From Dactylorhiza incarnata (taxonomy: Eukaryota; Streptophyta; Magnoliopsida; Asparagales; Orchidaceae): a stretch of DNA of 64,000 nucleotides. The DNA lies in assembly GCA_033032865.1 (NCBI GenBank), contig JAWHQI010000005.1, positions 7,588,001 to 7,652,000 of the forward strand, given 5' to 3'. The notes beneath the pieces were generated by a model. It worked only from the letters and a program-made list of their open reading frames with translations. It was not told the origin of the DNA and did not search any database. Positions 1-25,238 of the stretch are shown here, one piece after another. Position numbers and translations under genes: made by a program. How positions within the stretch are numbered: position 1 is the first letter of the stretch; each line of letters opens with the position of its first letter.

Positions 1-247
1 GAAGAGTAGATGTACCCAGTTTGATTGGGGAACTACTATAGATCCTTGTGTTTTCTGTGATTGTGTTTTTCTTTCTATACTGTGCTGTGATTTGTGTTAA
101 TTTTGCTTTTACACTCACTCTGTACATATATATATCACTATTTTAATTCCGCTATAAAATAAGTTAAAACTTTTTAATACTCTATTCACCCCCCCCCCCC
201 CCCCCCCCCCCTCTAGAGTAAATCTAAGTTCTAATACCTCACTTTCA
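1..247 (+). mobile_element. 3' end of a family-B Copia LTR
   Basis: This stretch matches the last part of the family-B LTRs at 26580-26833 and 36792-37032, including the phrase about an AGTAGATGTAC start, the long C run (about 190-211) and the CTCTAGAG that follows it. It ends in CA at 246-247. The sequence then changes to minus-strand family-B coding sequence, so a plus-oriented element whose body lies left of the window inserted into element A. The left TSD is outside the window and cannot be checked. Confidence 0.85.
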
Positions 248-1558
248 AAGCTCTTCACATAGAGCTGGTTCCTGCAAAATATCTTTAGTAGAGGTGGTAT
301 TCCTCTCCTAATTTAACATGTTAGTTTCATCAAAAGACACATGCATGGACTCTTCTATCTTAAGAGTTGATTTGTTATAAACTTTATATGCTTTACTAGA
401 AAGAGAGTATCCAAAGATATGCCTTCAGCAGCCTTTGCTTCAAATTTCCTTAGATATTTCTTATCATTGTTATGCACATAGTATTTACAACCAAAAATCT
501 TAAAATAGTTAACCTTAGGCTTTTTATTCTTAAGTAATTCATAGGGTGTTTTACCCTTAAGTTTATGTATCAAACTCCTGTTCAACACATAATTTATTGT
601 GTTCACTGCCTCTGCCCAAAAAGAGAGTGGCAAGTGAGCAGCAGCAAGTAATGTAGTTGCATTCAATTAATATTCTATTTTTCCTTTCAGCTACCCCATT
701 TTGTTGAGGAGTTCTAGGAGCAGAGAAACATTGCCTGATCCCTTCTTTTCCATATAATTCTCTCATCAGAAGAGATTCAAACTCAGTTCCATGATCACTT
801 CTGATCAATGCAACTAGAGTAAAGTACTCAATCTTGATGGACCTGAGAAAGTCTGTCAAAAAACTGAAGGTGTCAGACTTGTTCCTAAGAAAGAACACCC
901 AAGTGAATCTAGAGAAGTCATCTACAATAACTAAAGTGTAATGCTTTCCTCCTAGACTCTGTATTGCAGTGGGTCCAAAGAGATCCAAATGCAGTAAGTA
1001 CAGAATCCTAGGTGAATCACTCTTGAATAAAGATTTAAAACTACTCTTGGTCTGTTTTCCTAGTTGACAAGCCCTACAGAGTCCTTCTTTTTTGTATGAA
1101 CCAGAAGGCGGTCCTCTTACTAGGTTGTCCTTGGAGAGCTTAGAGATAGTTCTAAGGTTAATATGTCCATGCCTTTTATGCCATAATTCATTTGTTTTAC
1201 TTATTGAATTAAATAAACAAATGTCTGAATTGGCAGAGTCATTAATGTTTTTATTATTGGTAATAAGACATAAGGAATGATTAAAAGTTACCTGATAGCC
1301 TTCATCACATAGCTGGCTTATGTTGATGAGGTTATGCTTGAGACCCTTGACATATGCTACCTCTTTGAAGGTAACTGCTCCAACTTTGATTTTTCCATAT
1401 CTTTTGGTTTGTCCACATTTGGAGTCTCCAAAAATCACTTTGGGTCCAAGCTTTGCCTTGTAATTGCTTAGGTTGGCCTGGTTTCCTGTCATGTGCTTAG
1501 AGCACCCACTATCAAAATACCATTGTTCCTTTATGTTTGGATAGCCTTGTACCTGCAC
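248..1558 (-). pseudogene. pol: Copia pol fragment: protease and integrase (element A)
   Basis: Reading on the minus strand from 1558, the protein opens with a retropepsin site (FDSGCSKHMTG), then a GAG-pre-integrase zinc region (H..H...C..C around HKRHGH and CRACQLGKQ), then the integrase core with [20 protein letters not shown] and the [11 protein letters not shown] block. Around 660-665 a two-base deletion relative to element B shifts the frame; the integrase C-terminal part continues in another frame to about 355 (WAEAVNT, KTPYELL, FKIFGCK). The DDE residues are visible, but the gene is broken and truncated on the left by the LTR insertion. Products would cut the polyprotein and insert cDNA into chromosomes. 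Confidence 0.85.
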
Positions 1559-1571
1559 AACAGAAAATAAA

Positions 1572-3304
1572 CTAGTTGTTCTTGACCCAGACTACCTTGG
1601 GTCCTTTTGTCTTGCCACAAAAATCTGAAATGTAAGAAATCTCAGGTTGATCCTTATAGTCTTGTGGATGATATCTCCTTGGAGGAATAATCCACTCAGT
1701 AAAGGGATTCTTAGTATGTTGAGAATGAGAATTCTTCAGATATGCAGTATATTTTTCGTTCGACGAACTTGGCTGAGTTCGTCGATCGTCATTCGATGAA
1801 TTGAAGTAATTTCGTTGAGCACCGTTCGAATAATAGTTGTACTAAAAATCTGTCTTCAGCGTTCGTCGATCTCCATTCGACGAATTCATGTGATTTTGTC
1901 GAGCGCCATTCGACGAATTCTTTTGAATTCTTTTGTTCTTAACATCCTTGCTTGAAATATTCTTACCTACTTCTATTGCCTCTTTGCTTTTGGCAGAGAT
2001 GAATTTTACTGGTGTAGATAAAATATTTTTCTTAAGAAAATGTGGCTGACTTGATGATGCACCCAAGCCCAGTTTGCCATTGAGTCTGATATTCACGGTG
2101 CTTGTGATGTCCATCAGTTTGATGCTTCTCCTATTGAGGGATTCTTCAAACTTTTTAGCCTCAGATAATTTGTTCTCAATGAGAACAATATATTCTTTGG
2201 AGGCAGCCAGTTCTTTCTTAAGATTGACATTATCTTCAGTCAGTTGATTCATTTCAACCAACTTACTTCTGAGAGAGATTATCTCCTTCTCAGATCTAAT
2301 TAAATCTAAACAAAAAGTTTTAAATTCATTTATAAAATCATTTGAATTAAAATCAAAGGTAGAGATTACCTGATCACTGTCATTGTCAGATTCTGATTCA
2401 TCTGAATTATTTCCTGAGGCATTGATAGCCATCATGCAGAAATTTCTTTCATCTTCATCATCACTAGAGCTGGATGATGATGCATGTTTTGAATCATTAC
2501 ATGAGTCATAAATAGCCATCAAGCATTGATCCTTTTCATTTGTATCATTTTCATCTTCAAAGGAGCTGGATGATGACTCTAACTCAGTATCACTCCATGA
2601 TTCAGCTACAAAGCCTCTTCCCTTGTGTTTGTGTTTGCGGGAGGATGGCTTGTCGGAGTGCCTCTTTTCTTCTTTGTCTTTTCTCTTGTCCTTCTTTTGA
2701 TTTTCTGGACAGTCAGGTAGAATGTGTCCAGGCTTCCTGCAGCCAAAACAAATAATTTCTTTAGAGTTTGTTTTGTCATACCTTGGTTTTTCTCTGGATC
2801 TGGAATCCTTCTTTTTGAAGTCCTTTTTAGCCATTTTGTAGAATCTTTTGGCTAGTAGGCTCATAAACTCCATTTCTCCTAGAGCTTTATCTTCCTCTTC
2901 TGTTGCTTGAAAGGCAATGCCTCTTTCCTTTTTGGAGGTTGGTGAGGAGGTAGATTGTTCGGCTTCTCTAGTCTTGATAAGCTGCTCATCGGATTTTAAT
3001 TTGCTTAACAAGGTCTCGGTAGAGATCTCATTTAGGCTTCTGGCTTCCTTGATTGGCCAGATCCTTGAGTCCCATGTGCTAGGGAAGCACATTAGGATCT
3101 TATCATTCACTTCAGTGATTGTGATCACTTTTTCCAAAGACTTCAGATCATTGATGATGAGACTGAGTCCGTTGTACATATCTGCAACTGTTTCAGTCTC
3201 TCCCTTTTTGAAGTGCTCATATTGGGAGATGAGATGAGATGAGATCTTCTGTCCTTTCTCTCATCTGCAGATCCTTCAACCATGTTGTTGAGGGAATTCC
3301 AGAT
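1572..3304 (-). pseudogene. gag: Copia gag, 5'-truncated (element A)
   Basis: Capsid protein of element A. The reading frame at 3179-1842 has a CCHC zinc knuckle (CFGCRKPGHILPDC), a lysine-rich stretch, acidic serine-rich segments, and a coiled-coil-like region (EKEIISLRSKLVEMNQL). An in-frame TAG at 1842-1844 interrupts the C-terminal part, where element B has CAG-type codons; the frame then runs to a stop at 1572-1574, right before a pyrimidine-rich CAG that begins pol. The N-terminus is missing because element D inserted at 3304. The C-terminal part encodes repeated NSSNG-RR-type residues from the family word (see 1757-1925). Confidence 0.8.
1757..1925 (-). repeat. Family-B word cluster inside gag
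   Basis: Several copies of the family-B word, TTCGTCGA followed about 7 bases later by TCGACGAA or near variants, lie within the 3' part of gag of element A. The same cluster is at 28635-28790 in element B. The word also fills the family-B LTR and the region upstream of the family-B 3' ORF. Confidence 0.75.
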
Positions 3305-4095
3305 TGTTGGATCGTATGACGCCCTTAGAGGGGGGGGGGGTGAATAATGGTGTGTCTAAAAATTAATTTTTACTTAGTAATTTTTTTTTTAAAGAGATTT
3401 TACTTTACTAAAAAATTACTTATAAATACTTTCAAACCAATGCAACTTTAGTATTAAACCAAAACACAAATTTCTAAGATAAAGATTATGCCACCAAATA
3501 TGTAATTAAAGAAAAAGACATAATTATATTAATCATGAAATTTGAGTACAATAAAAATGATCTTAACAATGCTTAAGATCAAGGCACAATTATGTTAATA
3601 AAAAATTCTACAATTTTGGTTTACCAATCCTTCTCCCAAGGATCGGAAGGCTATCGCTTGTCTTTCCAAAGACCAAGCCCAAGCATATCCTCTAGATGTT
3701 CCCAAGATCTAGACGTAGCACACAAGGCCACGATTTCCCGCCAAGCCACGCAAGGACTTGGACGCTCCGCACAAGGAAGCGATTTTCCCCTAAGACGCAC
3801 AAGGACTTAGACGCCACACGCAAGACGATGATTTCTCTACCAATACAAAATGAAAAGTATGTGAATGAAAATACAATATGAAAAGAACAACTCCCTAGAA
3901 GATCAGATCTCTGAACGGATTGTTGAAGCCTCGAGATGATCGATGATGTAGAAGCGCGCCCGATCTCGTCTTCAATCTTCAATCCTTCTTTGCACAAATG
4001 GGAGTTGAAGAGGTTCTGGAGCTCTCTGGTTCGTATGCACTCAGGAAGGGACTTGGAATTCTCAAAGCTTTTTATGCACGAACACAAGGAGGCAA

Positions 4096-4102
4096 CTTAT
4101 AG
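4096..4102 (-). promoter_or_regulatory. TATA box of the D LTR
   Basis: On the minus strand this reads CTATAAG and lies 8 bases downstream of the nearest word-1 palindrome (4111-4126). It is the likely core promoter for the genomic RNA of element D; the predicted start would lie about 30 bases further toward lower coordinates. Confidence 0.65.
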
Positions 4103-4110
4103 AAAATCTC

Positions 4111-4427
4111 TGTCGCCTGGGCGACAGTGACTGTCGGAATTTTCCGACAGCGTTAAACTGCCGCTGGAGTGGCGTCGTGCGGGCAGTTGCTGTAACCGTT
4201 GAGCTGTCGCCTGGGCGACATCGATGTCGGATTTCCGACAGTGCAAAACTGCCGATCGTGGGTGGTGTCGTGGGCAGTTGTTGTAACCTCCGAGCTGTCG
4301 CCTGGGCGACATCGTTGTCGGAATTCCGACAGCTCAAAACTGACTTTCGTCGAGCTGCCGTGGAGGGAAGTAGTTGTAACTTCTCTGCTGTCGCCTGGGC
4401 GACAGCGGCTGTCAGAATTTTCCGACA
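4111..4427 (-). repeat. Four-unit two-palindrome array in the D LTR
   Basis: Four tandem units of about 91-94 bp. Each has word 1, TGTCGCCTGGGCGACA (4111-4126, 4205-4220, 4296-4311, 4389-4404), and word 2, TGTCGG..CCGACA (4132-4149, 4225-4240, 4316-4331, 4410-4427). Word 1 has perfect 7-base arms. Word 2 has arms of about 8 bases and varies slightly at its centre. The spacer between pairs repeats an AAACTGCCG...GGGCAGTTG theme. The array lies upstream of the TATA box on the element's strand. The same pair occurs at 5927, 6503 and 7738. Confidence 0.9.
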
Positions 4428-4576
4428 GTGCAATTTTCCCACATTCAAATTTAGCTCCAGCAGAAATGTGAACATCTCATACCTGTTACCTGCACACCAT
4501 TAATAAAAATAGAATCAAATACAAACGGGACTTTGTTATTATCAAACCGGAGGAGTGCGAAACGCATGCTCCAACA

Positions 4577-4785
4577 ATCTCCCCCTTTTGATAATAACAA
4601 ATCCGTATAAAAAGAAATCATGTCTTATTTAGATTGTTGATTTTAACATTTGGTGTGTGCACAAAAATAACATGATATATTTCTCTTAAAATAAATAATC
4701 TCCCTTTAGGTGAAAGCTCCCCCTAAATGAATGCTCCCCCTAAATATATGCTCCCCCTAAATATATGCTCCCCCTAAATATATGA
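4577..4785 (-). promoter_or_regulatory. Polypurine tract and tandem extra tracts
   Basis: Directly next to the 3' LTR the minus strand reads a purine run, AAAAGGGGGAGAT (about 4579-4592), the expected primer for plus-strand DNA synthesis. Further out, four copies of AGGGGGAGC spaced 17 bases apart lie at about 4716-4775. Multiple polypurine tracts upstream of the 3' LTR are a known Sirevirus trait. Confidence 0.75.
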
Positions 4786-5926
4786 TGTATTGTGTAGGTG
4801 GAATATTTAGGTGTAATAGATTTGTGATTTTTCTTTTTATACTTTAAATTCTCCCCATTTTGGTATTAGCAAAAGTTAATATTAGATAAAAGTGTAGTTC
4901 TTAAGGGAAAGGATATAGAATATAGAAATGAAGAGTAAGCGGAAGCATTTTTTTTTTTTTTGGAAATGATTGAAGTCCATGAAATAATAGGAATATGCCA
5001 TAGTATGAATAAACCCATGAAGTGACGGTATAGCCATATGAAGTAATGAAAGAAAATAACTTAAACATGAGTAAGGTCATTTGAAAGTATCATAGAAAGA
5101 CACAATAGTGTATAGAATTATGGAATATTTTCGGTCCAATTCTCATGAGATGAATGTTTATATAACATAATGATGTGTACATGTGATACTTAGATCAAAC
5201 ATATGAAGTTATTTAATTTACATGATCATTGAAATGTAGAACATAATAAAAGCATTTAAAGTCAACTTTGACTTTGAAGATATAGCACAAGAGGAATAGA
5301 AAACCATTTTTCTTTTGCACAAGACACTTTACAATTCTTTCCAAGGTGCTTAACCTCACAATGCTCATTAAGACTTATCAGGAGGGTAAGTAGTGCTTGG
5401 TGGAGTATCCTTGTCTTTATTATAAATTTATTTTTTTGATCACAGATGTTGTGATATCTTAAATTTGATATATTGATTTTTTTTTGTAATTGACCAAGGA
5501 TCTCCGAATTCACTTGAATCGCAAAAGATGGTGTATATTTTGTTGTGCTAACAAATCAAGGTTGAAAGTTGTATTTAAGAAGTGCTATTTTATTATGTTA
5601 AAGCAAATATGATCCATGTATATATTAAATAAAAAGACATACGTATTGATCAAAAGAAGTGAACGTGATAGTTCATTATGATAGATAAACAATTTCTCAT
5701 ACTTAGAGGCATGCGAAAACAATTTCCAATGGTCTAAACAACTAAGTAGGAGTGTCAATACGATGATAACTTAGAAATGAAATCATATAATCATGTAAGA
5801 GTCATTTTTTTAAAATAAAAAACACATGGTTTGTCATCAAGTCATGAGGTGAAGCATTAATAATGACATATAACTATTGTAAATCATCAAAGGGACCAAA
5901 AATTGAAGAAATATCAATTCGGGAGC
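4786..5926 (-). other. AT-rich 3' region of element D, no gene seen
   Basis: AT-rich sequence between the polypurine tracts and the antisense promoter. One more tract, CTCCCCATTTTGG with TATTAGCAAAAG, lies near 4852-4875 and resembles the sequence at 25023-25047 in element G. I recognise no coding region. Confidence 0.6.
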
Positions 5927-5982
5927 TGTCGGAAATTTCCGACAGTCACTGTCGCCTGGGCGACAGTCAAAAATATAAATAG
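5927..5982 (+). promoter_or_regulatory. Antisense-gene promoter: two palindromes and TATA box
   Basis: Word 2 (5927-5944), spacer TCAC, word 1 (5950-5965), 8 bases, then TATAAATAG (5974-5982). Read on the minus strand, the LTR promoter of the same element has word 2, the same 5-base spacing, word 1, 8 bases, then CTATAAG. The promoter faces right, opposite to the element's own transcription, toward the gene at 6595. Confidence 0.75.
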
Positions 5983-6009
5983 GGCTTTGGACCGAGTCAA
6001 ACCCTATTG

Positions 6010-6593
6010 TGCTTCATTTTTCTGGACTGTAGAGCGAGAGAAGGCTGTCGGAAGTCGGCGACAACTCTAGATCTAAGGTATGGATTTTTTATTTTTATGT
6101 TTTTAACTCAAAATTTTTTAGGGATTTGTGATTTTGATAGTAGAGAAGAAGGAAAATGTAGTTTTCATTTTGACTTTTGATGAATGGTGTAGGTTTTTGA
6201 ATTTTTTTTTTAAAAGTGTAGATCTAGTTTAAAAACAAGTGGATCTTGTTGGATCTTTGTTAAAAATGTTATGATTTTGTGATTCTTGTGGTTTAAGGTT
6301 TGCTTTTGTTCATAGACTAATTTTAAAAATGGAAGTTTTGTCTTTTGAATGAAGGTTGAAGATGATGAATAGTAAGGATATGGAGAAGATTTTGATTTGA
6401 AAAACATATATTTTTTTTTAAACTTGATGTTGAAACAACCTTGATTTTGAGTAGATCTGGAAGTGAATGTAAAAAAATTTCGAGAGAAGTTCACTGGAGA
6501 GCTGTCGGAAATTTCCGACAGTCACTGTTGCCTGGGCGACAGTGTTCTAGTGCACAGCACATGTTTAATCAAAATTTTTTATGTTATTTGCAG
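6010..6593 (+). other. Predicted 5' leader exon and intron of the antisense gene
   Basis: From about 30 bases past the TATA box, a leader runs to a good donor, AAG|GTATGG, with the exon ending at 6077. The acceptor TTATTTGCAG ends at 6593, two bases or so before the ATG at 6595. The intron (6078-6593, 516 bp) is T-rich, as usual in plants, and contains another copy of the two-word module at 6503-6541 (word 1 with one change). The splice is inferred from signals only. Confidence 0.5.
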
Positions 6594-6594
6594 A

Positions 6595-7710
6595 ATGGCT
6601 TCCAGTTCCAAAGCTCGAAGGAGTACTTCGGAAGATGCACATAGTTCATATCAAGTTTTTCCTGGGGTGGAGAAAGCTATTGTTGGAGTTGCGAAGTATG
6701 TGGAATTTGATTCGCCGAAGCACGATCATATCTATGATCGGCTTGCGAATGCAGGTATTCTCTCAATAATCACCCCAGAGTCGTTCTCTTCCTTTTTGAT
6801 TCGCGAGTTCTATAATCATTTGGAAGATCCAAATTGCACTGATTTGGATGGAGGAGTAAGATCAAGAATTCAGGGTCAACATGTGGAAATAACACATGTT
6901 GATCTAAGAGAGGAATTCTGATTAGTGATTAGTGAAAATGTGCCGGATATAGTGGAGAGTTATAGAAAAGATAGAGATTGGACCCTTGTAAACATGAGTT
7001 TACATGGGAATCAAAGGAAGACTCTAACCACTGAAGTTACGTCACTCAATCCGGATGCTTTCTTAGTTCAAGATATCTTAAGGAATTCAGTCATGTTGAA
7101 GAGTGGAGATACAAGAAGTATTACGGCTCAGTTGACCCTCATTACATACTACATTATGGAGGATGAGCTTTTTGATGTGGCGGACTTCATACTCTCCCAG
7201 ATTAGGTATGCGTATAGATTAAAGCATCTAAGATGGGTGAAGGTTCATACGCTGCCAATGGGGGCGATAATTCAGCGTGTACTCTATAAGAAGTACGGAT
7301 GGATAGCGCAAAGTTCTTATTTGGATGATTGTTATCCGGAGATATATTATACGGGTTCGATGAAAGTGAAGAAGACGCAGAAAAAGGCTCATCCGGGAAT
7401 TGAGATTCGAGAGCCGCCATTGCCTAGGGCAGGATCACTACGAGAGTCCATTGATGATTTACGTGATTCATTAGAGGATCACAAGAAGGAAGTGAAGAAG
7501 GACCGTAGTCGAATGCAGAAGTTTATGAAGTTTCTCGTCAAAGGTCTGAAGTTGAAGCCAACGCCGGAGGAAGAGGCCGAATGGCAAGTTCCGGACGAAG
7601 AACCGCCACGCCAATCGGTGAGGCGAACTCGCCGTGGTAAAGCCGTGAGACGAGGACCTCCAGAAGATTGTCCAGAGAGCAGCGGGGCTGGTTATGAAGA
7701 TTCAAAGTAG
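6595..7710 (+). pseudogene. Antisense extra ORF of element D (plant transposon-protein-like)
   Basis: A 371-codon frame opposite to pol, starting at ATG 6595 (MASSSKARR) just after an acceptor-like TTGCAG and ending at 7710. An in-frame TGA at 6919-6921 splits it; the context suggests a former CGA. The N-terminal half has the pattern LIREFYNHL, then a short strand-rich segment (RIQGQHVEITHVDL). The middle has a helical block (LITYYIMEDELFDVADFILSQI), and the C-terminus is charged, with RRTRRGK. The order resembles the putative plant transposon protein / Athila ORF-1 type proteins in the other elements here. It lies tail to tail with pol (end at 8003). I do not know its function; an RNA- or DNA-binding role is only a guess from the basic tail. 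Confidence 0.65.
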
Positions 7711-7737
7711 TTTCATCAGGTTGCTGCTGCTGGGAGA

Positions 7738-7776
7738 TGTCGGAAATTTCCGACATCCACTGTCGCCTGGGCGACA
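7738..7776 (+). repeat. Two-word module after the antisense gene
   Basis: Word 2 (7738-7755) and word 1 (7761-7776) in the same order as in the promoter module, 27 bases after the stop of the antisense gene and between two convergent genes. No TATA-like box follows. It could mark the 3' end of the gene cassette or simply be a duplicate. Confidence 0.7.
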
Positions 7777-8002: not shown

Positions 8003-10454
8003 TCATTGTGAAATGTCTAGAATTCCCAATTCTAGCCTAAGCATAGAAAAACGGGAATCCGGTAACGGCTTAGTGAATATATCCGCTAGTTGATTTTCCG
8101 TGCCTATAAAGTTGATTTTTATATTACCCTTCTTAATATGATCCCTTATAAAATGATGTCGGACATCTATATGCTTAGATCTAGAATGTAATACGGGATT
8201 GTTAGTTAAGTCTATAGCACTTTTATTGTCACACTTTAATTCTACACTACTTTGTTTCATGCCAAAATCTTCTAATGTTTGTGACATCCAAAGAGCTTGG
8301 GCACAACAAATACCTAGTGCAATATATTCGGCCTCGGTAGTAGAGAGGGCAACAGAATTCTGTTTCCTACTCAACCATGAAATAAGTGAAGGGCCGATAA
8401 AGTGACAAGTGACACTAGTGCTTTTCCTATCTAAAGAACATCCCGCATAATCGGAATCCGAAAAACCATGTAAAATAAAAGAATCATTATGAGGATACCA
8501 TAAACCTAATTTTGATGTTCCTATGAGATATCTAAAGATACGTTTCACCGCTTTTAAATGTGACTCTTTAGGATTAGCTTGAAATCTAGCACATAAACAA
8601 ACGGCAAACATAATATCAGGTCTAGATGCGGTTAAATACAATAAAGACCCTATCATACTTCTATAAAGGGTTTGTTCAATTGAAACACCACTTTCATCTT
8701 TTCCTAATTTTAGTGAAGTACTCATAGGAGTGTTTGCATGCTTAAGGTTTTCAAATCCAAATCTTTTTAACATATCATGAATATATTTGGTTTGACATAT
8801 AAAAATTCCATCATGTTTTTGTGTAATTTGAAAACCTAGAAAATATGAAAGTTCTCCAACCATACTCATTTCAAATTCATTTTTCATAATTTGAACTACT
8901 TCATTACACAACTCTTCATTAGTGGCTCCAAAAATAATATCATCAACATAAATTTGTAAAATAACTAAATCATGATCAATTTGCTTAATGAAGAGTGTAG
9001 AATCAGCACTTCCTATTTTATAATCGTGCTTTAACAAATATTGAGTTAATCGATCATACCAAGCACGAGGCGCTTGTTTTAATCCATAAAGCGCTTTATC
9101 TAATTTATAAACATAATTTGGATATTTCTCATTTATAAAGTCAGGGGGTTGTTCTACATAAACCTCTTCTTTTATATACCCATTTAAAAATGCGGTTTTG
9201 ACATCCATTTGATATAATTTAAATCTTTTAAAACAAGCAAATGCAAGAAATATCCTAACCGCTTCTAATCTTGCTACGGGTGCAAAAGTTTCATCAAAAT
9301 CTACCCCTTCAATTTGTGCATAACCTTTTGCAACTAATCTGGCTTTATTTCTAATAATTCTAGATTCATTATCCATTTTATTTTTAAAAATCCACTTAAC
9401 ACCAACTACAGGACGATTTTTGGGTCGTTCTACAAGATTCCAAACCTTATTACGTCAAATTGATTAAGTTCTTCATTCATAGCTAAAAACCAAAATTCAT
9501 CATTTAAAGCGGTGGAAACATCTTTTGGTTCTATTTCAGAGACAAAACAAAGGTTTGAAAATAAAACATGTAGCGATGAACGAGTACTAACCCCTTTTTG
9601 CGGATCTCCAATGATAAGCTCCTTTGGATGATCCTTTGAAAATCTCAATTCACTTGGAGGCACATATTCTTCTCTTTCTTCTTCTCTTTCTTCTTCTCTT
9701 TCTCCTTCTCTTTCTTCTCCTTTTTCTTCTTCATTTTCTCCAAGTTCTTCATCATCATTCTCCACCGAAGGAAGGGGATCATCTTCTTTTCCTGTTATTT
9801 TCTTTTCTACACATGAAGCAAACTCATCAAACCTAACATGAATGGATTCTTCAACTATTTTTGTTCTTTTATTAAAAATCCGATAAGCTTTACTAGTTGA
9901 AGAATAGCCAATAAAAATACCTTCATCACATTTTTCATCAAATTTTCCTAAGGAATCTTTAGAATTCAAAATAAAACATGTACAACCAAAAACTTTGAAA
10001 TAAGAAACATTTGGTTGTTTATTAAAAATTAATTCATAAGGAGTTAATTTTAAAATAGGGCGAAGCATTACTCTATTTATTACATAACATGCCGTGCTAA
10101 CCGCTTCAGCCCAAAAAGATTTTGGTAATTTGAATTCAGATAACATTGTACGGGCTAACTCTTGAAGAGTTCTATTTTTCCTCTCCACTACACCATCTTG
10201 TTGTGGTGTGCGTGGAGCGGAAAATTCATGTTTAATTCCTAACTCCGTACAAAAAGAAATAAACTTTTCATTTTCAAATTCTCCTCCATGATCCGATTGT
10301 ATGAGTTTAATTTTTAACTCAAATTCATTTTGAATACGCAAACATAATTTTGAAAATTCTGAAAATGCTTCGGATTTGGAGGTTAGAAATAAAGTCCAAC
10401 AAAAACGAGAATAATCATCAATCAAAACAAATGTGTATTTTCTACCTCCTAAGC
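8003..10454 (-). pseudogene. pol: Copia pol: partial integrase, RT, RNase H (element D)
   Basis: Minus-strand pol from the integrase core (VLIDDYSRF, SDHGGEFE, PQQDGVVERKN) through RT ([33 protein letters not shown]) to RNase H ([33 protein letters not shown]), ending at 8003. One frame change occurs near 9460, where EELNQF is followed by a one-base loss; otherwise RT and RNase H are open, with the YVDD catalytic motif intact. Between integrase and RT is an acidic, E/R-rich segment from a TTCTTCTC microsatellite (about 9668-9735). The N-terminal integrase, protease and gag are missing: the sequence switches to Athila-type at 10455. Confidence 0.9.
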
Positions 10455-11220
10455 TCCCTCGCGATTATAACCTCCACGGATTTTGGGCAGAAATCAGTAA
10501 CGACCCCAATCCATATTCGCCAAAAAAATCCAAGGGTAGTCATCTCCTCTCCCCGCCTTACGCTATCTCCACTACCTCCTCACTTTCACACTTTCCGCTC
10601 GCGGCGATAGCCATGGAGTGGTGACTCACGCGGACCTGTTATATTTATATAGCCTGCACGAATGGGTCCCCCACAATCTTGGTTCGGCGCTAGCGATGTT
10701 TTTTCGGCATCAGGCCGAAAATCGGAGGCTTAGTGCGCTACATGGAGGTTCGTTTGTTACTTATTTGGCCAAGCGTTTGGGCCTCTGGGATGCACTTCCT
10801 CCCATTGCTCCACTCCAAACGCCCGCGCCTATCACGTTCCAAAACCTCTGGGCCCTTGGTTTGATGTGTCGACGTGGCCGCGAGTACGAGGCCGTTCCTA
10901 GCGAAGTTGGTGGCGACCCGATCGATCTTGATTTCGAAGCTGATTCCGGTGGCGTTGCTCCAGCTCCGCAGTTTCCACAGCCGCCACAGCAGCATTTTCC
11001 CCCTGCGCCCGACTCCTCCACTTATTTCGATCAGCAGTTTGGGCGGTTCCACACTCGTTTGGATCAGATTCAGACCGAGCAGTTGTCCATGCACGCTCAT
11101 TTTGACACACGTTTTGATACCCTCGAGCAGCGCCATGCTTCCTCTATGAAGCATCTGCAACGGGAATTTGCTGATCTGCGTGCTTATTATCAGCAGGAGG
11201 ATGACGACGATGACGCTTAG
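10455..11220 (+). pseudogene. Athila ORF-1-like extra ORF, 5'-truncated (E1)
   Basis: Second copy of the 3' part of the gene at 17559-18769. It begins at PRDYNLHGFWAEIS and carries a one-base loss in a C run near 10550 compared with the E2 copy, which changes frame between HLLSP and the ALRYLHYLL-equivalent. From 10618 the frame is open to 11220 and includes a proline/glutamine-rich linker, a C-terminal helical region (RLDQIQTEQLS, LEQRHASS) and a run of aspartates at the end. The promoter and the N-terminal half are absent. Confidence 0.8.
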
Positions 11221-12784
11221 AGATGTTTATTTTTGGTCGTCTGCATCTTTTATTTTATGTACCGCACTTTTGTATTTATTTTTATTTCTCTTTTTATTAA
11301 TGCAAAAAAATATATAAAAAATGTTTTGCTTTTACTCTATGTTTTTCTTCAGGATTGCTCGGGTATTGATTTGTTCTACATCAGGGAAGTTTTCTCTCCT
11401 TTACTCGTACTTATTTCTAAAACATTGGGGACACTGTTTTCTTTTAAGTATGGGGTGGGGGATATTTCACACCGGTTTTATTGCAAAGCAACACCCAAAA
11501 TTTTTATTAAAAAAACAAAATAATAATAATATAGTTTTCTTAAATATTTCTATATTTACTTGTTTGCAAAATTCTTAGTAGATTTACTTTTACATAGTGT
11601 TGTAGGAAATTTTTATATACTTCATTAGATTTTGAATTTTGGAGTAAAATTGTTGAATCGTGCAGTGTTCTAGTTACGCGCGTTAGTAGGATCTCATGTC
11701 GAATTAACTATTCAGCATAAAATTAGATTTATGTTTTTCTAACTGCGTAAAAATATTTTTGTTTTACTTTTCCTTTGAATCTGGTAGAATCTAAAAATAC
11801 TTTAAGTGAGCATGTAGAAGTTTACTAGAGAAATATTACACAATTTGAACGGAAGGGTATTCTTTCTCAATGTCTAGAACTTGCCTCTAGCGACTCTCAA
11901 GACCTTTGCATAAGTTAAATTCATGAGCGTGAATATGATATAGGCATTTTATTGGCCCGTTTGAGCTTTTGCACCCGCACCTAACATTCTATCTTTGTTA
12001 AGCCACTTTGAGCCTATTACTTTATTTTTTTTGTTTCAGCTCCACCATGCTCTTCACCAAGGCCCAAAAAGCAACCTAATCACACACCTAAGTCTATGCT
12101 CGAAAATAAATATTTGAAAAGATTTTGTGAGTGTTGGGTGCCTTTTGTTATTTTAGTGGACATTTTTTTGTTTATGAAGGAAAACAATGATGATATAAAA
12201 ATTCAAAAGAAAAAAAGAAAAAAGGGGGAACAAAAAGATTGGGAATTGGCTATTATTTTTACAATGCTGCTTAGATTATTTTGTGCGAGCTCACTTTAGA
12301 TTTGAGTGTGACTAGCCGTCATATTTATCTTGTTTGTCCTCACCAAAAATAACCTAAGCCCGCATTTCAACCTACTTAAGTCCTATTGATTCATACTTAT
12401 GAGTTAAACTAGTGTCATGGCGAGAGTGTGAAAGGGCAAGCCTATGACCATCGTCATTGATGGATTTCTTTGGAGGCTATCCCGAACTTTGATTTTGTGT
12501 AATATTGATCTTAGTGAACACGCTACTCGCTCCCTAATTATCAATTTAGGATTTACCGGATTTTCCATTTAAAAGTAAAAACAATATGTTATAAAGCATT
12601 TTTGAAAATTATAAGCTAATCTTTATGCTGAATAGGTTCTTCTACTAGGATTTCTATACGCTTAGGCGCAAGACTTCGCATTTTTACTCCTTAGGTTCAA
12701 ATTTCTTTTATAGTATTTAAATTTTTCTACTCCTATGAAAAGTTGTTTGCTTGGGACTAGCAAACGGGTAAGTATGAGGGTATT
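11221..12784 (+). other. 3' untranslated region of E1 with conserved box
   Basis: Long AT-rich non-coding region from the extra ORF to the LTR. At 11421-11460 it has a box, AACATTGGGGACACTGTTTT followed by CTTTTAAGTATGGGG, which is also in E2 (about 18967-19005) and, on the minus strand, in element X (38733-38774). Similar boxes are common near the 3' ends of Athila-type elements. The polypurine tract GTATGAGGGTATT (about 12772-12784) directly precedes the LTR. No other gene is visible. Confidence 0.65.
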
Positions 12785-14385
12785 TGATAACTCTAATTTT
12801 ATCTTAGTTTTTATTTAGTTTTTAACTTAATAATCAGTCAATATATGTCTAAATTCTAAAAATAATCTCCCTAATTTATTTATTTCTCTTTCTCAGGTAA
12901 TTTGGGTTGCCAATAGCAATTTCAAGCTCATTAGAGTAAGCAGGAGAATATTTGGAGTATTTCTGCTGAAATCACAAAGTACACGCCCTAGGTCACGGGC
13001 GTGACTAAGGGCGTGACACCATGTCACGGCCGCGAACCAGCCACACTGTATTCCAGTTGAAGAAGTCTGCCGCCAAGTCAGATTAAAATTACACGCCCTC
13101 TGTCATGGGCGTGACCTCAATTTCACGGGCGTGACTCGCCCGGAATGCGTTCAATGCAGCCAGCAATCAATTCCCGCAGTGTCCAGCTTATACGCCCTCG
13201 GTCACGGACGTGACTGAGGCCGTGACTCTTCCGCAACCGCCAGATTAACTCAGTTCGCGACGTTTCCCGCCGTTTCCAGACCCGGTCAAGACACGCCCTA
13301 GGTCACGGGCGTGACAAAGGCCGTGACCCGCCATGCAATTGATTTATGGCTGTTTCTCTTCCCCAACGTTCCCGGGCTTTCAAGACAGCAATTACGCAGA
13401 TTACACGCCCTTGGTCACGGGCGTGACCAAGGGCGTGACTCTCCGATTTTTCAACTATAAAAGACAGCAATCCCCAGAAGTCAAGGAGTTCGATTTTGGA
13501 GTTTATTTACAGCTTTAGTTTACTATTTTTGTTGTTCTAGCTAATTTTTCTCCAAGTTGTAATTTTTTATTATTGCAATTTCAATTCAAGTATTCTAGTT
13601 TTTAATCATGTCTTTTTCCTCTTCTACTTGTATTCCCATTACTATGATGAGTAGCTAAATTTCCTTTAGCACTTGGTCATGATGAACTTTGGAATGAAAT
13701 AAAATATGTTTTGAATTTTTCTAATTAGCCAACTCTCGTATTGTTTATCTTCGATTTATCTTTGAATTACTTTGTTTTGATTTCATATGTCCGGAATATG
13801 ACTTTCAATCTAAGATTCGTTTGCTAGTGATCGAGAGATTCATGCGAACGAGGAGATCACTCAAAGATAAAAAGAGTTGTATGCATTCCTCGAGAGAGGG
13901 TGACACAAATCTTTCGGATTGGAGTCAAATCCAATAGTGGGGTTCACCGCTTAAAGCAAGCTTAGGGGTTTCGACTGGCCGAGGGGTCTTAATCGATCAA
14001 CCTAAGGTTAGGTGGTAGTTCTCTCGAGAGAGGCTCTACCATATTTTGGGAACCTCCACGGTCGAAGATATTTCAATAAGAGTTTGCGGTTTCATCTTTT
14101 ATAAAATTATATTTTATTCCAAAGAGATTCAAGACCAAGTGCTAATCCTTTAAATCATAATTTTTCTTCGTAGTTAATTTTCTCCAAATCATTTTTCCAA
14201 AACAAACCCAACTTTCGATCGATAAAATAATAGCTCTTCTTTTTGAGTAGAAGTACTCAACAAGCCCGGAAAAATTCGACACTTGATTTTCTAAATCCTA
14301 TACTATAAAGCGATAGGTACACTTGCCTTATCGAATTATACGTGGATAATATTCTAATTTTACGCAGCGCGAATTTATTCCATCA
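12785..14385 (+). repeat. Athila-type LTR shared by E1 and E2 (1,601 bp)
   Basis: Starts TGATAACTC after a polypurine tract and ends CCATCA directly before the AGTTTTTGGCGCC primer-binding region. It works as 3' LTR for E1 and 5' LTR for E2. It holds the word cluster 12976-13440 and a TATA box at 13456-13463. Confidence 0.85.
12976..13463 (+). promoter_or_regulatory. E word cluster and TATA box in the LTR
   Basis: About five clusters built from ACGCCC, GGTCACGGGCGTGAC and AGGGCGTGAC. The last (13405-13436) is a perfect inverted repeat with 15-base arms, ACGCCCTTGGTCACG and its complement, around a GG centre. Fifteen bases after the last word comes TATAAAAG (13456-13463), the likely core promoter of the LTR. 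Confidence 0.8.
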
Positions 14386-14391
14386 AGTTTT

Positions 14392-14409
14392 TGGCGCCGT
14401 TGCCGGGGA
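14392..14409 (+). promoter_or_regulatory. Primer-binding site (tRNA-Asp type) of E2
   Basis: TGGCGCCGTTGCCGGGGA, six bases after the LTR end. It is complementary to the 3' end of plant tRNA-Asp and is the usual minus-strand primer site of Athila-type elements. Confidence 0.85.
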
Positions 14410-14492
14410 ACTATTGTTGATATTTTGAAAGCTTAGTTCTATTAATTTTATCATTTTTTTCTCTCTCTCTTTCCTACTTTTTTTTTTGGTGT

Positions 14493-16072
14493 ATGACCCG
14501 AAGGAATCCGTCCGATCTTCTTGAATTGGATCCTAAAATCGAGCAAACCATTCGGCGACACTTAAGATTTCAAGGACCAAATTCTCAAGATCTGATCGAG
14601 GAGTCTGTAGATGACACTTCTCCTTCTTCTTCTACTTCTTCCTCCTCTTCTTCTGATATGGGTGATCCAAACCCGGATGAGGCCGCGCAGCGGACTATGT
14701 CCTATTATGCACGACCTAATCTGGAAGATACCCAATCTAGTATTGTCCGCCCCGCTATAGCGAACAATAACTTTGAGTTGAAGTCAAGCATCATTCAAAT
14801 GGTACAACATTATGTACAATTTGATGGGCTACAAGACGAGGACCCCAACGCGCATATTTTTAGTTTTCTAGAAATATGCGATACTTTCAAAATTAATGGG
14901 GTATCCGATGACGCAATAAGGCTTCAGGTTTTTCCTTTCACCTTGCGCAATAAGGCTAAGCAGTGGCTGAATTCTCTTCCGAGAGGATCTATCACCACAT
15001 GGGCTCAAATGACGGAACAGTTTCTCACGAAATATTTTCCGCCCGCTAAATCAGCCCAATTGCGTAAGGATATCATTTCTTTCTCCCAAGTTGAATTAGA
15101 AACGCTTTATGATACTTGGGAGCGGTTTAATGAACAGTTGCGCCGATGCCCCCATCATACAATCTCCGATTGGTTACAGATTCAGACCTTCTACAATGGT
15201 CTCAATCTCCAAACACGTCAAATAATTGACGCCGCCGCCGGTGGTACTCTAAATAACAAAACACCGGCGGCTGCGCAAGAGCTTATTGAGGGGATGGCCA
15301 TGAACACTTATCAATGGAGTACACCCAGGTCTCGCTCAAATAAACTGGGTTGTATGAAATTGATTCAATTACTAATTTGTCTCTACAGGTTGAGCTACGT
15401 AGCAAGAAACTAGAAAGGATGACTGCTCCCTCTTCTACACCTACCTGGGAGCCTAATCAAAATGCGGCGGAGCATGTGGATTACATGGGTAATCCGAACC
15501 GGCCGCCCTTCAATCCGAGGAACAATCAATACGGCAACACATACCACCCAGATTGGAGGAACCACCCCAATTTATCATGGGGTAATCAAGGTAACACGGG
15601 TAATGCTCCCCTTGCTCCTCCAAATTCATCTCTTCTACCGCAAGCCCCTAAACCGCCTTCTCTCGAGGAAGTGGTTAATAAATATATTTCTAAAAATGAT
15701 GCGGATGTCCGCAATTTACAAGGGTCGTTGCGGAATTTGGAGAATCAAGTGGGGCAACTTTTAAAAATGGTTACCGATCAGCCGAAAAGAACACCGCCGA
15801 CAACTTCAAATGTCTTGGCGGTGACCTTTGCGGATGATTCGGACACCGATCTTGAAGAGGAAATTTCACCTACCCCATCATCTCTTCCTCTTCCAGAATT
15901 TCAACCTCGTCTTCCTTATCCCGCTGGTTTGATCGAGCGGGCTAATAATATTAATTCTAATTTTAAAATTACATGCACTATAGGAACTACCCGTTTTTCA
16001 AACGCTTTCGCCAATCTGGGCGCTAGTGTTAATATTATCCCCTATAGCTTAGCCCAAAAATTACAATTATGA
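14493..16072 (+). pseudogene. gag: Athila-type gag, frameshifted
   Basis: ATG at 14493 opens a capsid protein with a serine-rich N-terminus, the retrotransposon-gag domain (NAHIFSFLEICDTFKINGVS, LRNKAKQWLNSL, WAQMTEQFLTKYFPPAK) and the conserved LIEGMAMN block. Near 15345 the frame changes; it resumes in another frame (MYEIDSITNLSLQVE, then an N/P-rich region, then a coiled-coil-like LRNLENQVGQLLKM) and runs into protease. A TGA at 16070-16072 falls where a glycine codon would be expected. At roughly 525 codons before protease, the size is normal for Athila gag. Confidence 0.85.
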
Positions 16073-16300
16073 GAACCTACCCCCACCGACATCAAATTAC
16101 AATTGGTCGATCGCTCCGTGAAGACACCTTTAGGGGTGATTCATGATGTGCCAGTTGAGGTTGGCGAGTATACTTTACCGGTAGACTTCGTTATCCTTGA
16201 TATGGAAGAAGACACCGGGATACCTCTTATCCTTGGTCGTCCCTTATTGGCCACTACGCGAGCAATATTTGATGTTTGTGAGGGCATTCTTCTCCTCTGA
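15960..16300 (+). pseudogene. Athila-type aspartic protease, inactive
   Basis: Retropepsin-like segment downstream of gag: TRFSNAFANLGASVNIIP, then, after the TGA at 16070-16072, VDFVILDMEEDT and IPLILGRPLLATTRA, all hallmarks of the family. The catalytic DLGAS aspartate is replaced by asparagine (AAT at 16013-16015, one base from GAT), so the enzyme would be dead even without the stop. A second stop follows at 16298-16300. No RT sequence follows. Confidence 0.8.
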
Positions 16301-16417
16301 ATGGGGTATGAGAATATTTTAATTCATGCAACAAATTCACCTACCTTGCATCTCTCAAAGCCGTTATCATCATTTGATGATAAATTTAGAACAAGGTAAA
16401 GACCGGCACGCCACTAT

Positions 16418-16466
16418 GGTCGAGCTCAACGACCGTAACCAAAACACTCTTGGGAGGCAACCCATG
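16418..16466 (+). other. Conserved post-pol box
   Basis: Contains GTCGAGCTCAACGACCGTAA and CTTGGGAGGCAACCCA. From memory, boxes of this kind are found just after pol in many plant Athila/Tat-type elements. Here it follows protease by about 120 bases, so RT, RNase H and integrase appear to have been removed between the two. Confidence 0.55.
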
Positions 16467-16904
16467 TTTTTATTTTTCGCTCTTAAAACATGTCTAAAAA
16501 AAGATTTTATATTAAGAATTTTTTTTATGTTTTTCTTTTTAAAATTTTAAATTTACAAAAACATATGAAAATATAAAAATGAATCACAAAAAATATATAT
16601 TTTTATAAAAAAAAAATAAAAAAAATAAGAGTTTTTTTTCGTTTTTCTTATTGTTTTTATCAAAAAAAATCATGTTATTTTTTTTTGTTACTAACAATTT
16701 TGCAGGTTTGGAGGAGATTTGCGAGATAACGGACACTCGCACTTAAGCATAAAACCCCGCTCTCCAAGTCGGTACTTTATTATTAGTATTTTTCTTTTTA
16801 TTTTATTACCTTGTTTTTGTTTTTATTTTTGTTTTCTTTAAAAAAAAGATAAAAATTTACAAAACCAAAATATATATATATGTTTCTGAAAAAATGTGTG
16901 TTAC
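16467..16904 (+). other. AT-rich spacer of E2
   Basis: Very AT-rich sequence with many A and T runs between the post-pol box and the second word cluster. I see nothing coding. A short purine/pyrimidine segment near 16700-16770 is more mixed but unrecognised. Confidence 0.5.
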
Positions 16905-17465
16905 ACGGTCTTAGTCACGGCCTCAGTCGCGGCCGTGACCAGGGCGTCGCGCATTTCGATTCGTTTTCCTGGCGAGTTTTTCGACGAGTTGCTCTCCATT
17001 CCGTCTTCCGTAAAAGTCACGGGCATGACCAAGCTTGGGCACGAGCGTGACATTAACGGAAGACCATTTTCGCCTAACCCGACGCTCACGGGTCACACTC
17101 ATGACTTTCGAAGGTCACGGCCGTGACTTATCCAGCTGGCGCAATGCCTCCACCGCAGCCGGTCAAAGATTCCATTTGACTGTCACGCCCGTGACAGCCA
17201 AGTCACGCCCATGGTCACGGGCGTGACCCTGAACGGTGACATCTCGTGAACCGATTTTTGACCAGCGCGCATTGGATCTCCTGTCCTCCTGATTACGCCA
17301 GTTACAAGCCCTCGGTCACGGGCGTGACCGAGGGCGTGGCATGCCAAAATTCCGCTTTTTGACCGGTCAAGCCTCGGATTCCTCCCTCACGCCAGCTTTT
17401 ACCTGTCGCCCCTTACACGCGCCCGTGACCGAGGGCGTGACCCCAATTTTTTTTCCTATTTAAAG
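16905..17465 (+). promoter_or_regulatory. Internal promoter of the E2 extra ORF
   Basis: A second cluster of the E words (GTCACGGCCGTGACC, GGTCACGGGCGTGACC, GAGGGCGTGACC and variants) runs from about 16905 to 17442. TATTTAAAG lies at 17457-17465, 14 bases after the last word, and a pyrimidine-rich leader follows to the ATG at 17559. The geometry nearly matches the LTR promoter (15 bases). It implies a separate transcript for the extra ORF. Confidence 0.7.
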
Positions 17466-17558
17466 CCCCCTTCCCTCTCTCTTTTCTCTACACCTTGTCC
17501 CACATCTCTCCCTTCTTTTCTTTCTTCTTTGGCCGAATTCTTCATCTCTTCCTTCCAA

Positions 17559-18769
17559 ATGGCCACCCGCCGTCGCAACCACGTCGTTGGCGAGTCCTCC
17601 TCTTCACTCCCCGATGACTCTTTTGATGCGGAGGCTATGCTCAATTTTCCTCATCCCACTCATCAAGAACGGAGTTACCGCCTCCGTGGGAAAGAATTTG
17701 GAGTTTTTCACGTCATCGATTGGAATGTTCTCACCACCCTCGGGCAGGCCAACACGGTGCGAGATTTCCTCACTACTCCGGGTGGGCTCCTTTCTTCTCC
17801 ATTTCGGAGTCGGCGTACTACGAGCTGACGGTGGAGTTTTTCTCTTCGTTTGATTTCCACTGGGCCGGGGGCGACAACGTGCTTGAATTCCGAATGGGCG
17901 GACTTTTGTGAACCCTTCCTTTGCGTCAGTTCAACGTTCTCATGGGCTTCAGCGACGAGGCTTTCACCCTTACGGAGGCCTACACCGCTCTCCCCCTCGA
18001 TTTCCCTCGCGATTATAACCTCCACAGATTTTGGGCAGAAATCAGTAACGACCCCAATCCATATTCGCCAAAAAAATCCAAGGGTAGTCATCTCCTCTCC
18101 CCCGCCTTACGCTATCTCCACTACCTCCTCACTTTCACACTTTCCGCTCGCGGCGATAGCCACGGAGTGGTGACTCGCGCTGACCTGTTATATTTATATA
18201 GCCTGCACGAACGGGTCCCCCTCAATCTTGGTTCGGCGCTAGCGATGTTTTTTCGGCATCAGGCCGAAAATCGGAGGCTTAGTGCGCTACATGGAGGTTC
18301 ATTTGTTACTTATTTGGCCAAGCGTTTGGGCCTCTGGGATGCACTTCCTCCCATTGCTCCACTCCAAACGCCCGCGTCTATCACATTCCAAAACCTCCGG
18401 GCCCTTGGTTTGATGCGTCGGCGTGGCCGCGAGTACGAGGTCGTTCCTAGCGAAGTTGGTGGCGACCCGATCGATCTTGATTTCGAAGCTGATTCCGGTG
18501 GCGTTGCTCCAGCTCCGCAGTTTCCACAGCCGCCACAGCAGCATTTTCCCCCTGCGCCCGACTCCTCCACTTATTTCGATCAGCAGTTTGGGTGGATCCA
18601 CACTCGTTTGGATCAGATTCAGATCGAGCAGCTGTCCATGCGCGCTCATTTTGACACACATTTTGATACCCTCGAGCAGCGCCATGCTTCCTCTACGGAG
18701 CATCTGCAGCGGGAATTTGCTGATCTGCGTGCTTATTATCAGCAGGAGGATGACGACGATGACGCTTAG
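17559..18769 (+). pseudogene. Athila ORF-1-like extra ORF of E2
   Basis: ATG at 17559 (MATRRRNHVVGESSSS) starts a protein with the layout of the Arabidopsis retrotransposon ORF-1 (Athila) family: RLRGKEFGVFHVIDWN, a block YYELTVEFFSSF, FRMGGLL, LRQFNVLMGFSDEAF, a helical region (LRYLHYLLTFTLSARGDSH), LYSLHERVPLNLGSALAMFF and GGSFVTYLAKRLGL, then a P/Q-rich linker, a coiled-coil-like end and an aspartate run. It is broken by a frame change near 17780 and a TGA at 17909-17911. In Athila this position is called env-like, but I see no clear membrane segment. About 400 codons. Its cellular role is unknown. Confidence 0.75.
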
Positions 18770-20333
18770 AGATTTTTATTTTTGGTCGTCTGTATCTTTT
18801 ATTTTATGTACCGCACTTTTGTATTTATTTTTATCTCTTTTATTAATGCAAAAAATATATAAAAAATGTTTTGCTTTTACTCTATGTTTTTCTTCAGGAT
18901 TACTCGGGTATTGATTTATTCTTCATCGGGGAAGTTTTCTCTCATTTACTCGTACTTATTTCTAAAATATTGGGGACACTGTTTTCTTTTAAGTATGAGG
19001 GGGTGGGTATTTCACACCGGTTTTATTGCAAAGCAACACCCAAAAATTTTATTAAAAAACAAAATAATAATAATATAGTTTTCTTAAATATTTATATATT
19101 TACTGGTTTGCAAAATTCTTAGTAGATTTACTTTTACACAGTGTTGTAGGAAATTTTTATATACTTCATTAGATTTTGAATTTTGGAGTAAAATTGTTGA
19201 CTCGTGCAGTGTTCTAGTTACGCGCGTTAGTAGGATCTCATGTCGAATTAACTATTCAGCATAAAATTAGATTTATGTTTTTCTAACTGCGTAAAAATAT
19301 TTTTGTTTTACTTTTCCTTTGAATCTGGTAGAATCTAAAAATACTTTATGTGAGCATGTAAAAGTTTACTAGAGAAATATTACACAATTTGAACGAAAGG
19401 GTATTCTTTCTCGATGTCTAGAACTTGCATTTAGCGACTCTCAAGACATTTGCATAAGTTAAATTCATGAGCACGAATATGATATAGGCATTTTATTGGC
19501 CTGTTTGAGCTTTTGCACCCGCACCTAACATTCTATCTTTGCTAAGCCACTTTGAGCCTGTTACTTTATTTTTTTGTTTCAGCTCCATCATGCTCTTCAC
19601 CAAGGCCCAAAAAGCAACCTAATCACACACCTAAGTCTATGCTCGAAAATAATTATTTGAAAAGATTTTGTGAGTGTTGGATGCCTTTTGTTATTTTAGT
19701 GGACATTTTTTTTGTTTATGAAGGAAAACAATGATGATATAAAAATTCAAAAGAAAAAAAAAAAGAAAAAAAGGGGGAACAAAAAGATTGGGAATTGGCT
19801 ATTATTTTTACAATGCTACTTAGATTATTTTGTGCGAGCTCACTTTAGGTTTGGGTGTGACTAGCCGTCATGTTTACCTTGTTTGTCCTCACCAAAAATA
19901 ACCTAAGCCCACATTTCAACCTACTTAAGTCCTATTGATTCATACTTATGAGTTAAACTAGTGTCGTGGCGAGAGTGTGAAAGGGCAAGCCTATGGTCAT
20001 CGTCATTGATGGATTTCTTTGGAGGCTATCCCGAACTTTGATTTTGTGTAATATTGATCTTAGTGAACACGCTACCCGCTCCCTAATTATCATTTTAGGA
20101 TTTACCGGATTTTCAATTTAAAAGTAAAAACAATATGTTATAACGCTTTTTTGAAAATTATAAGCTAATCTTTATGCTGAATAGGTTCTTCTACTAGGAT
20201 TTCTATACGCTTAGGCGCAAGACTTCGCATTTTTACTCCTTAGGTTCAAATTTCTTTTCTAGTATTTAAATTTTTCTACTCCTATGAAAAGTTGTTTGCT
20301 CGGGACTAGCAAACGGTTAAGTATGGGGGTATT
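18770..20333 (+). other. 3' untranslated region of E2
   Basis: Near-copy of 11221-12784. Holds the conserved box at about 18967-19005 and the polypurine tract GTATGGGGGTATT (about 20321-20333) directly before the LTR. No gene recognised. Confidence 0.65.
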
Positions 20334-25097: not shown

Positions 25098-25238
25098 TGT
25101 TGGAACAACCCTATTACTGATTTGGGCTAGGATCACTATCTGTGACTAGGACTCAAGTTGACCCCATTGTATAGTCTAAGGGTCAAGGTCTAAGTGTGTC
25201 TGAGTAACTAGAACTTAGGAAAAATTCCAAGTTTCTGT

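Follow-up and report, generated by a model that had tools for sequence, protein, structure and literature searches.

Two palindromic words form an oriented module at the LTR promoter and at the predicted promoter of an antisense gene in a Sirevirus of Dactylorhiza incarnata

Results

Element D and its surroundings

The 64-kb stretch of DNA analysed here (the window) is filled by a nest of plant LTR retrotransposons. One of them, element D, is the single copy on which all statements about its family rest. Its 3' LTR was located by sequence at about 3308-4577 on the minus strand, with the ends TGTTGG...CCAACA; a self-comparison of the window gave no second copy of this LTR, and the 5' LTR lies outside the window. 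The pol of D occupies 8006-10464 on the minus strand, with RVT_2 in 8006-9454 and the integrase core in 9433-10464, and it matched Pfam RVT_2 at E 4.8e-75 along with SH3_retrovirus and rve. Athila-like sequence truncates this pol at about 10455, and the self-comparison showed that 10455-13414 duplicates 18003-20975 with 95.7% identity. The element is inserted into the gag of A', a minus-strand fragment (1-3304) of family A, of which 249-3304 is 88.8% identical to 27257-30300 of element A.

The linker before the 3' LTR of D contains five AGGGGGAG polypurine tract (PPT) octamers on the minus strand (4579-4775; at 4579, 4717, 4734, 4751 and 4768), and the pol contains none. Multiple PPT octamers are described as a hallmark of Sireviruses (PMC2829016). 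The PPT/LTR junction of D reads AGGGGGAG-AT-TGTTGG, and elements A and C of the window likewise have the octamers, together with the common junction AGGGGGAG-AT-TGTTGGA. Since D carries these octamers and shares this junction with A and C, its sequence places it, by the features given in PMC2829016, among the Sireviruses of Ty1/copia. The primer binding sites of A and C, TATCAGAGT and TATCAGAGG, each match the Sirevirus sequence TATCAGAGC at 8/9 positions; the 5' end of D is outside the window. Searches of viral-contig and genome-contig collections with pol pieces returned no outside relatives, and a protein search with the extra open reading frame (ORF) of C found no relatives at E 0.01. As the collections are largely viral, bacterial, archaeal and metagenomic, these misses probably say little.

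An antisense gene with a predicted promoter of its own

On the plus strand, between the minus-strand pol and the 3' LTR, D carries an extra ORF at 6595-7710 with an ATG at 6595. The frame holds two stops, an internal TGA at 6919-6921 and the terminal TAG, compared with 15-29 stops in the other five frames. The piece 6922-7707 (262 residues) had a single Pfam match up to E 10, to PF20167 (putative plant transposon protein; E 8e-4), and the first piece of the ORF had none. Basic, NLS-like stretches were found in the second half of the 6922-7707 piece, and no transmembrane-like stretch in the pieces of the D ORF. A putative 5'UTR intron at 6078-6593 (plus), bounded by a donor-like AAG/GTATGG and an acceptor-like TTGCAG/A, would end 1 nt upstream of the ATG. 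Because an antisense ORF is unreadable from the LTR transcript, this gene needs an internal promoter of its own, and with a module, a TATA box and splice-like signals in place, such a promoter is likely.

Seven copies of a two-word module

The module consists of two palindromic words, word 2 (TGTCGG-6 nt-CCGACA) and word 1 (TGTCGCC-2 nt-GGCGACA, 16 nt). An earlier note on this DNA had proposed that the same module, with equal spacing, stands at the LTR promoter and at the antisense promoter as a functional unit used twice in opposite directions. When each promoter was read on its own strand, we found the same order at both, namely word 2, five bases, word 1 and TATAA. The TATA-proximal LTR module (4110-4150, minus), which is the copy closest to the body of the LTR, has word 2 at 4132-4149 and, after 5 nt, word 1 at 4111-4126, followed 9 nt past word 1 by the LTR TATA box (TATAAG, 4096-4101, minus). 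In the module before the antisense gene (5926-5967, plus), word 2 lies at 5927-5944 and word 1 at 5950-5965, and the TATA box (TATAAAT, 5974-5980, plus) follows 8 nt past word 1. The spacing is thus equal to within 1 bp, although not exactly, as the end of word 1 is 9 nt from TATAA in the LTR and 8 nt in the antisense gene. The near-identity of the two blocks was borne out, as they form a 42-bp inverted repeat (4110-4151 / 5925-5966) that is 93% complementary in otherwise unrelated surroundings. A functional unit at two opposite promoters is well supported by the selective conservation of the words and by the same plan in three further families, both described below, but "used twice" was too narrow for a module with seven copies, one of which lies in the presumed intron and another in the presumed 3'UTR.

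Four of the seven modules form an array in the LTR (minus) and three are distributed along the antisense gene (plus), where all are non-coding, in the candidate promoter, the putative intron (6502-6542, plus) and the 3'UTR (7737-7776, plus). The latter two fall within the presumed transcribed part of the gene and have no TATA box behind them; as these are 2/3 of the gene copies, a module restricted to TATA promoters was rejected. A degenerate word copy, 80% identical to word 2, is present in the presumed 5'UTR (6044-6063, plus). In the whole window, 0.14 matches to word 1 were expected (at most 3 mismatches, both strands) and 14 were found, both strands of seven sites having matched; the corresponding figures for word 2 were 0.03 expected and 5 found.

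The plus-strand reading of word 1 is TGTCGCCTGGGCGACA in 7/7 D copies (4110-7776), one of them with a substitution. The order of the module is reversed between the LTR and the gene, yet word 1 keeps its plus-strand direction, and the two sets of modules are therefore not simple inverted copies of each other. A single inversion of the modules as one block was rejected on the same grounds, the direction being constant in all copies. As read from the sequence, two different motifs form one oriented module in D. The fixed direction of word 1 could have come about either by two substitutions or by a flip of the palindrome centre.

Conservation of the words in the LTR array

The four LTR modules lie in the U3 part of the LTR (4110-4433, minus) with a period of about 91 bp, and the tandem array was scored as 3.5 units of that period. 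Conservation was compared among the three full units, the fourth being only half inside the array. Both word 1 and word 2 showed 96% identity, compared with a mean of 62% in the other 53 columns; the 3 spacer columns showed 56%. Invariant columns numbered 17/18 in word 1, 16/20 in word 2 and 24/53 in the rest. Word 2 is 2 nt shorter in two LTR copies with both arms intact (half-site spacing 4 nt), and the fourth LTR copy has one arm change in word 2. In this alignment the half-sites are held and the centre is loosely held.

One possible explanation for such words is passive spread, in which palindromes duplicate by template switching in reverse transcription or by recombination and their placement at promoters has no function. 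The LTR array is indeed a tandem repeat, and word 1 has kept its plus-strand direction despite the reversal of the module, as hairpin flips could give. Nevertheless, the words are conserved against diverged spacers, the same plan is seen in four families, and the distances to TATA match in D and in the Athila-like element (see below), so that we regard passive spread as highly improbable.

Alternatively, the words may act as RNA, as pairs of hairpins that serve both the genomic and the antisense RNA as a structural signal, be it for packaging, for dimerisation or as a template of small RNAs with which the host silences the element. Modules are present in the presumed intron and 3'UTR, and each of the four modules (of seven) that were folded gave two stable hairpins, with z of -4.3 to -6.7 versus shuffles, although hairpin folding is common to any palindrome. 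In the 3'UTR copy, word 2 has A-T as its outermost pair where other copies have C-G, a both-sides change that keeps pairing but fits a palindromic DNA site equally well; single-sided arm changes also occur, in word 1 of the intron copy and in word 2 of the fourth LTR copy. Moreover, the promoter copies are upstream of TATA and therefore outside the RNA started there, although the 3' end of the RNA does contain a copy of U3, and an RNA function predicts no fixed distance to TATA. We consider an RNA role as the main explanation to be unlikely. Since hairpins form readily and an excess of small RNAs has been reported in maize on the palindrome clusters of Sirevirus LTRs (Bousios 2016, cited in PMC10760457), the words may also be targets of the host, and such a role is compatible with that of a protein-binding site.

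Other families in the window

The extra ORFs of A and C are in sense orientation, in elements with Sirevirus junctions, whereas that of D is antisense; they matched PF20167 at E 1.5e-6 (A) and 6.6e-7 (C). Palindromes of A, GTTCGACGAAC, lie upstream of its extra ORF at 32147-32335 (plus) and in its LTRs at 25239-25592 and 35458-35732. Those of C, TGTCTCGAGACA, lie upstream of its extra ORF at 47113-47264 (plus) and in its LTRs at 40425-40668 and 50493-50736. The palindromes of A also cluster at the end of gag (28632-28792), partly in the reading frame, with a counterpart in A' at 1758-1871; there is no extra ORF beside this cluster. In C the words stand some 120 and 90 nt from TATA, unlike the tight spacing of D, and in the LTRs of A no TATA box of the forms looked for was found close behind the words.

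The same plan was found in an Athila-like gypsy element, whose order along 10455-20975 is extra-ORF end, LTR, gag, words, extra ORF and LTR (cut). Its palindromes, GTCACGGGCGTGAC, occupy 12992-13427 (plus) in one LTR, before a TATA at 13456, and 20541-20876 in the second LTR copy. They recur at 16926-17441 (plus) upstream of the extra ORF, which has its ATG at 17559 behind a TATA-like box at 17457, and the last word stands 16 nt and 15 nt from the TATA-like box at the two places. Gag is present; the extra ORF is broken into pieces, one of which matched ATHILA at E 2.8e-5 and PF20167 at E 3.5e-3. The plus strand of 16069-17328 has no ORF of at least 90 residues. Because no long ORF lies between gag and the extra ORF, the element looks non-autonomous, with the ORF and the words kept.

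Words of yet another kind, TAGCGCCGGCGCTA, stand directly before the TATA in LTR fragment E (about 23705-25095; LTR to 24772). Significant likeness between the LTRs of E and D is limited to the two ends (E 4e-9 and 3e-5), a comparison by which the words turn over fast between related LTRs. A further gypsy element (54681-63572) has none of the six words and no recurrent palindrome; no extra ORF was found in it, and there was no PF20167 match in the four ORFs tested. Its LTRs of ~2 kb are 96.4% alike and contain one AACGCACGATCGTGCGTT or variant each (56596, 63467), with no array.

Specificity and placement of the words

Six words were scanned in seven element spans, giving 42 cells. The off-family cells held two single sites in total, with A', as a fragment of A, not counted. 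The A words were found 31 times in A and 3 times in A', the C words 22 times in C and once in the Athila-like span, and the sites at home were 19/19 for the Athila-like words, 7/7 for D word 1, 6/7 for D word 2 and 5/5 for the E words. One further single Athila-like word lies outside the scanned spans, at 22095.

In 4/4 families with an extra ORF, words occur both in the LTR and in the 700 bp on the 5' side of the ORF. This span was fixed after the data had been seen, only word 1 was counted for D, and the start of the C ORF was taken as the start of the frame because there is no early ATG. Within the span lie 4/10 internal sites of A, 6/7 of C, 7/7 of the Athila-like element and 2/3 of D word 1, with circular-shift p of 0.136, 0.065, 0.068 and 0.021, respectively, which are individually weak and combine to 0.0039 by Fisher's method. 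Counter to this placement, the gag cluster of A holds 6/10 of its internal sites. The words occur as family-specific arrays in non-coding parts, as do the motifs of the VANC system discussed below, the exception being this cluster, which is partly inside the A gag.

Observed/expected CpG in element A (25096-37032) is 0.12 in pol and 0.10 in the 3' LTR behind the words, and 1.5-2.6 in the word clusters, where it is high partly by construction because the words contain CpG. Transitions, pooled by hand from four copy comparisons with non-transition changes left out, were counted at 24/108 CpG versus 15/60 GpC in the word arrays and at 22/82 versus 31/185 outside. The direction fits a protection of CpG in the arrays, but by hand calculation the difference falls short of significance (z about 1.5), and the alignment of tandem arrays is ambiguous. 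These counts carry no weight in the interpretation below.

Proteins of the extra ORFs

PF20167 was the only Pfam family below E 0.17 for the extra ORFs of D, A and C. The scores were 19.8 (D), 28.6 (A), 29.8 (C) and 17.7 bits (Athila-like), and all PF20167 matches (17.7-30.1 bits) are below the Pfam gathering score of 45 bits. Pairwise BLASTP linked the A ORF with the C ORF (E 1e-9) and, across the copia/gypsy divide, with the Athila-like ORF (E 7e-5). The same comparison gave no link for the D ORF with those of A, C and the Athila-like element (E 0.51, 0.097 and 2.2, respectively) or for the C ORF with the Athila-like ORF (E 0.27). Basic, NLS-like stretches were found in the D and C pieces and none in the A and Athila-like pieces scored, the second A piece being in the wrong frame. 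AlphaFold2 models from four-row alignments had a mean pLDDT of 44.7 (D piece) and 41.6 (A piece), and no fold, DNA-binding or other, could be read from them.

Discussion

The sequence of D displays seven copies of a module, a common order and TATA distance at two opposite promoters and selective conservation of its words, and three other families follow the same plan. It is probable that a shared cis-element serves both promoters of D. Somewhat less firmly, although still as the best overall account, we propose that the module is bound by a protein close to the promoter, as a family-specific site that represents a compound version of the Sirevirus "repeated motif" (RM). This candidate site would serve the LTR promoter and, in the opposite direction, the antisense gene's own promoter between pol and the 3' LTR, with transcription presumably starting from both TATA boxes and the antisense transcript spliced at the putative intron. 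Since the arms are conserved, the place before TATA is fixed and the module is reused in reverse elsewhere, a binding protein best explains the data; it would probably be a dimer with TGTCG/CGACA as its half-sites and with an effect on both promoters.

Such a protein could be a host transcription factor, for instance an auxin response factor (ARF), whose sites were captured by both promoters; the antisense gene would then encode no reader. In word 2, TGTCGG, described as the ARF site of highest affinity, is repeated in inverted orientation, and word 1 contains TGTCGC and the C word TGTCTC, both of which are named as TGTCNN elements (PMC10690724). However, 6 nt separate the half-sites of word 2 (4 nt in two of the LTR copies), in contrast to the spacing of 7 or 8 in the major pattern (IR7/IR8) described there. 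In addition, other families have other half-sites, and the unrelated words of A, E and the Athila-like element, all in the same genome, argue against an ARF or other host reader. We regard such a capture as rather doubtful.

The closest known counterpart is the Sirevirus RM, a set of family-specific palindromes with numerous copies ahead of the LTR TATA (Bousios et al. 2010, PMC2829016). In Sireviruses with an ENV-like gene, 77/79 linker copies of the RM were counted upstream of that gene, and an internal promoter for these sense genes has been put forward as a hypothesis (PMC2829016). The palindromes of D are likewise repeated in the LTR upstream of TATA. Unlike the RM, D combines two different motifs in one oriented module, and its extra gene is antisense, with motifs that run along it (promoter, intron and 3'UTR) and so also past the gene start, whereas the genes of A and C are sense. 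The CGG-CCG core of the RM is present in D word 2 and absent from D word 1, the A words and the C words; one RM without this core, that of Tnd-1, was counted in PMC2829016. The RM was called Sirevirus-specific among the Ty1/copia elements compared in that source, whereas here the plan recurs in a gypsy element of Athila-like type. That Sireviruses carry palindromes both in the LTR and ahead of a sense ENV-like gene is thus already known (PMC2829016). What is apparently new, judged from these sequences, is the antisense gene that needs its own promoter, the oriented two-motif module and the same plan in an Athila-like gypsy element.

Grande and RIRE2 are gypsy elements. They are, together with Retand, the cases of an antisense additional ORF (aORF-3R) given in PMC7264820 and PMC11963269, and D resembles them in that its antisense ORF is flanked by pol and the 3' LTR. 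In these sources, the gene23 product of Grande is nuclear and the gene has its own promoter, and in Retand TRP28 ORFs in antisense are accompanied by tandem repeats specific to the family. In contrast, D is a copia element while Retand is gypsy, the D ORF has a weak match to PF20167 and not to TRP28, and a promoter motif shared with the LTR is not described for the aORF-3R elements in the parts of PMC7264820 and PMC11963269 available to us. In a sunflower Athila, a sense 3' extra ORF partially matches PF20167, is related to ATHILA ORF1 and has a predicted nuclear localisation (PMC11728184). It shares this PF20167-type 3' extra ORF with the elements described here, but the paper makes no mention of palindromes.

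A more speculative extension of our proposal is that the element's own PF20167-like protein would read the words in a self-recognising, autoregulating circuit like VANC, the anti-silencing system of VANDAL transposons. VANC has short family-specific motifs, tandemly repeated in non-coding parts including the introns of VANC; a second VANC has different motifs, and binding by VANC has been demonstrated (PMC5735166). D likewise has short family-specific motif arrays in non-coding parts, the putative intron of its own gene included, but the VANC motifs (YAGTATTAY, AGTTGTCC and AGTTGTAC) come from DNA transposons and lack palindromic symmetry (PMC5735166). An element-encoded reader fits the finding that words differ between families in one genome while standing next to genes of one broad kind, and by this analogy we hold it to be conceivable, if short of an even chance. 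The broadest form of the idea, that two superfamilies (Sireviruses and Athila-like gypsy elements) carry a sequence-specific self-recognition circuit, is by the same analogy more tentative still: a nuclear PF20167-like protein would bind the CpG-bearing palindromes of its own family at the LTR and at its own promoter and would activate or de-silence only that family, the words and the protein co-evolving as in VANC.

Among the matches listed from the openly licensed literature, in the portions available, we recognised no report of a Sirevirus whose antisense extra gene has motifs in common with its LTR, or of the plan in Athila-like elements; as evidence of novelty this is weak. The role and expression of ENV-like and antisense genes in plant retrotransposons are described as unknown or controversial (PMC7264820, PMC2829016, PMC3414828). 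The antisense arrangement in D sets the idea of an internal promoter apart from explanations by which the LTR transcript is spliced or its stop codon read through, and the family-specific words predict which protein should bind which DNA. If an element-encoded reader is real, plant retrotransposons would hold a self-specific regulator, which is testable by simple binding assays, and if the self-recognition circuit is true, the "ENV-like" gene would be a regulator and not an envelope.
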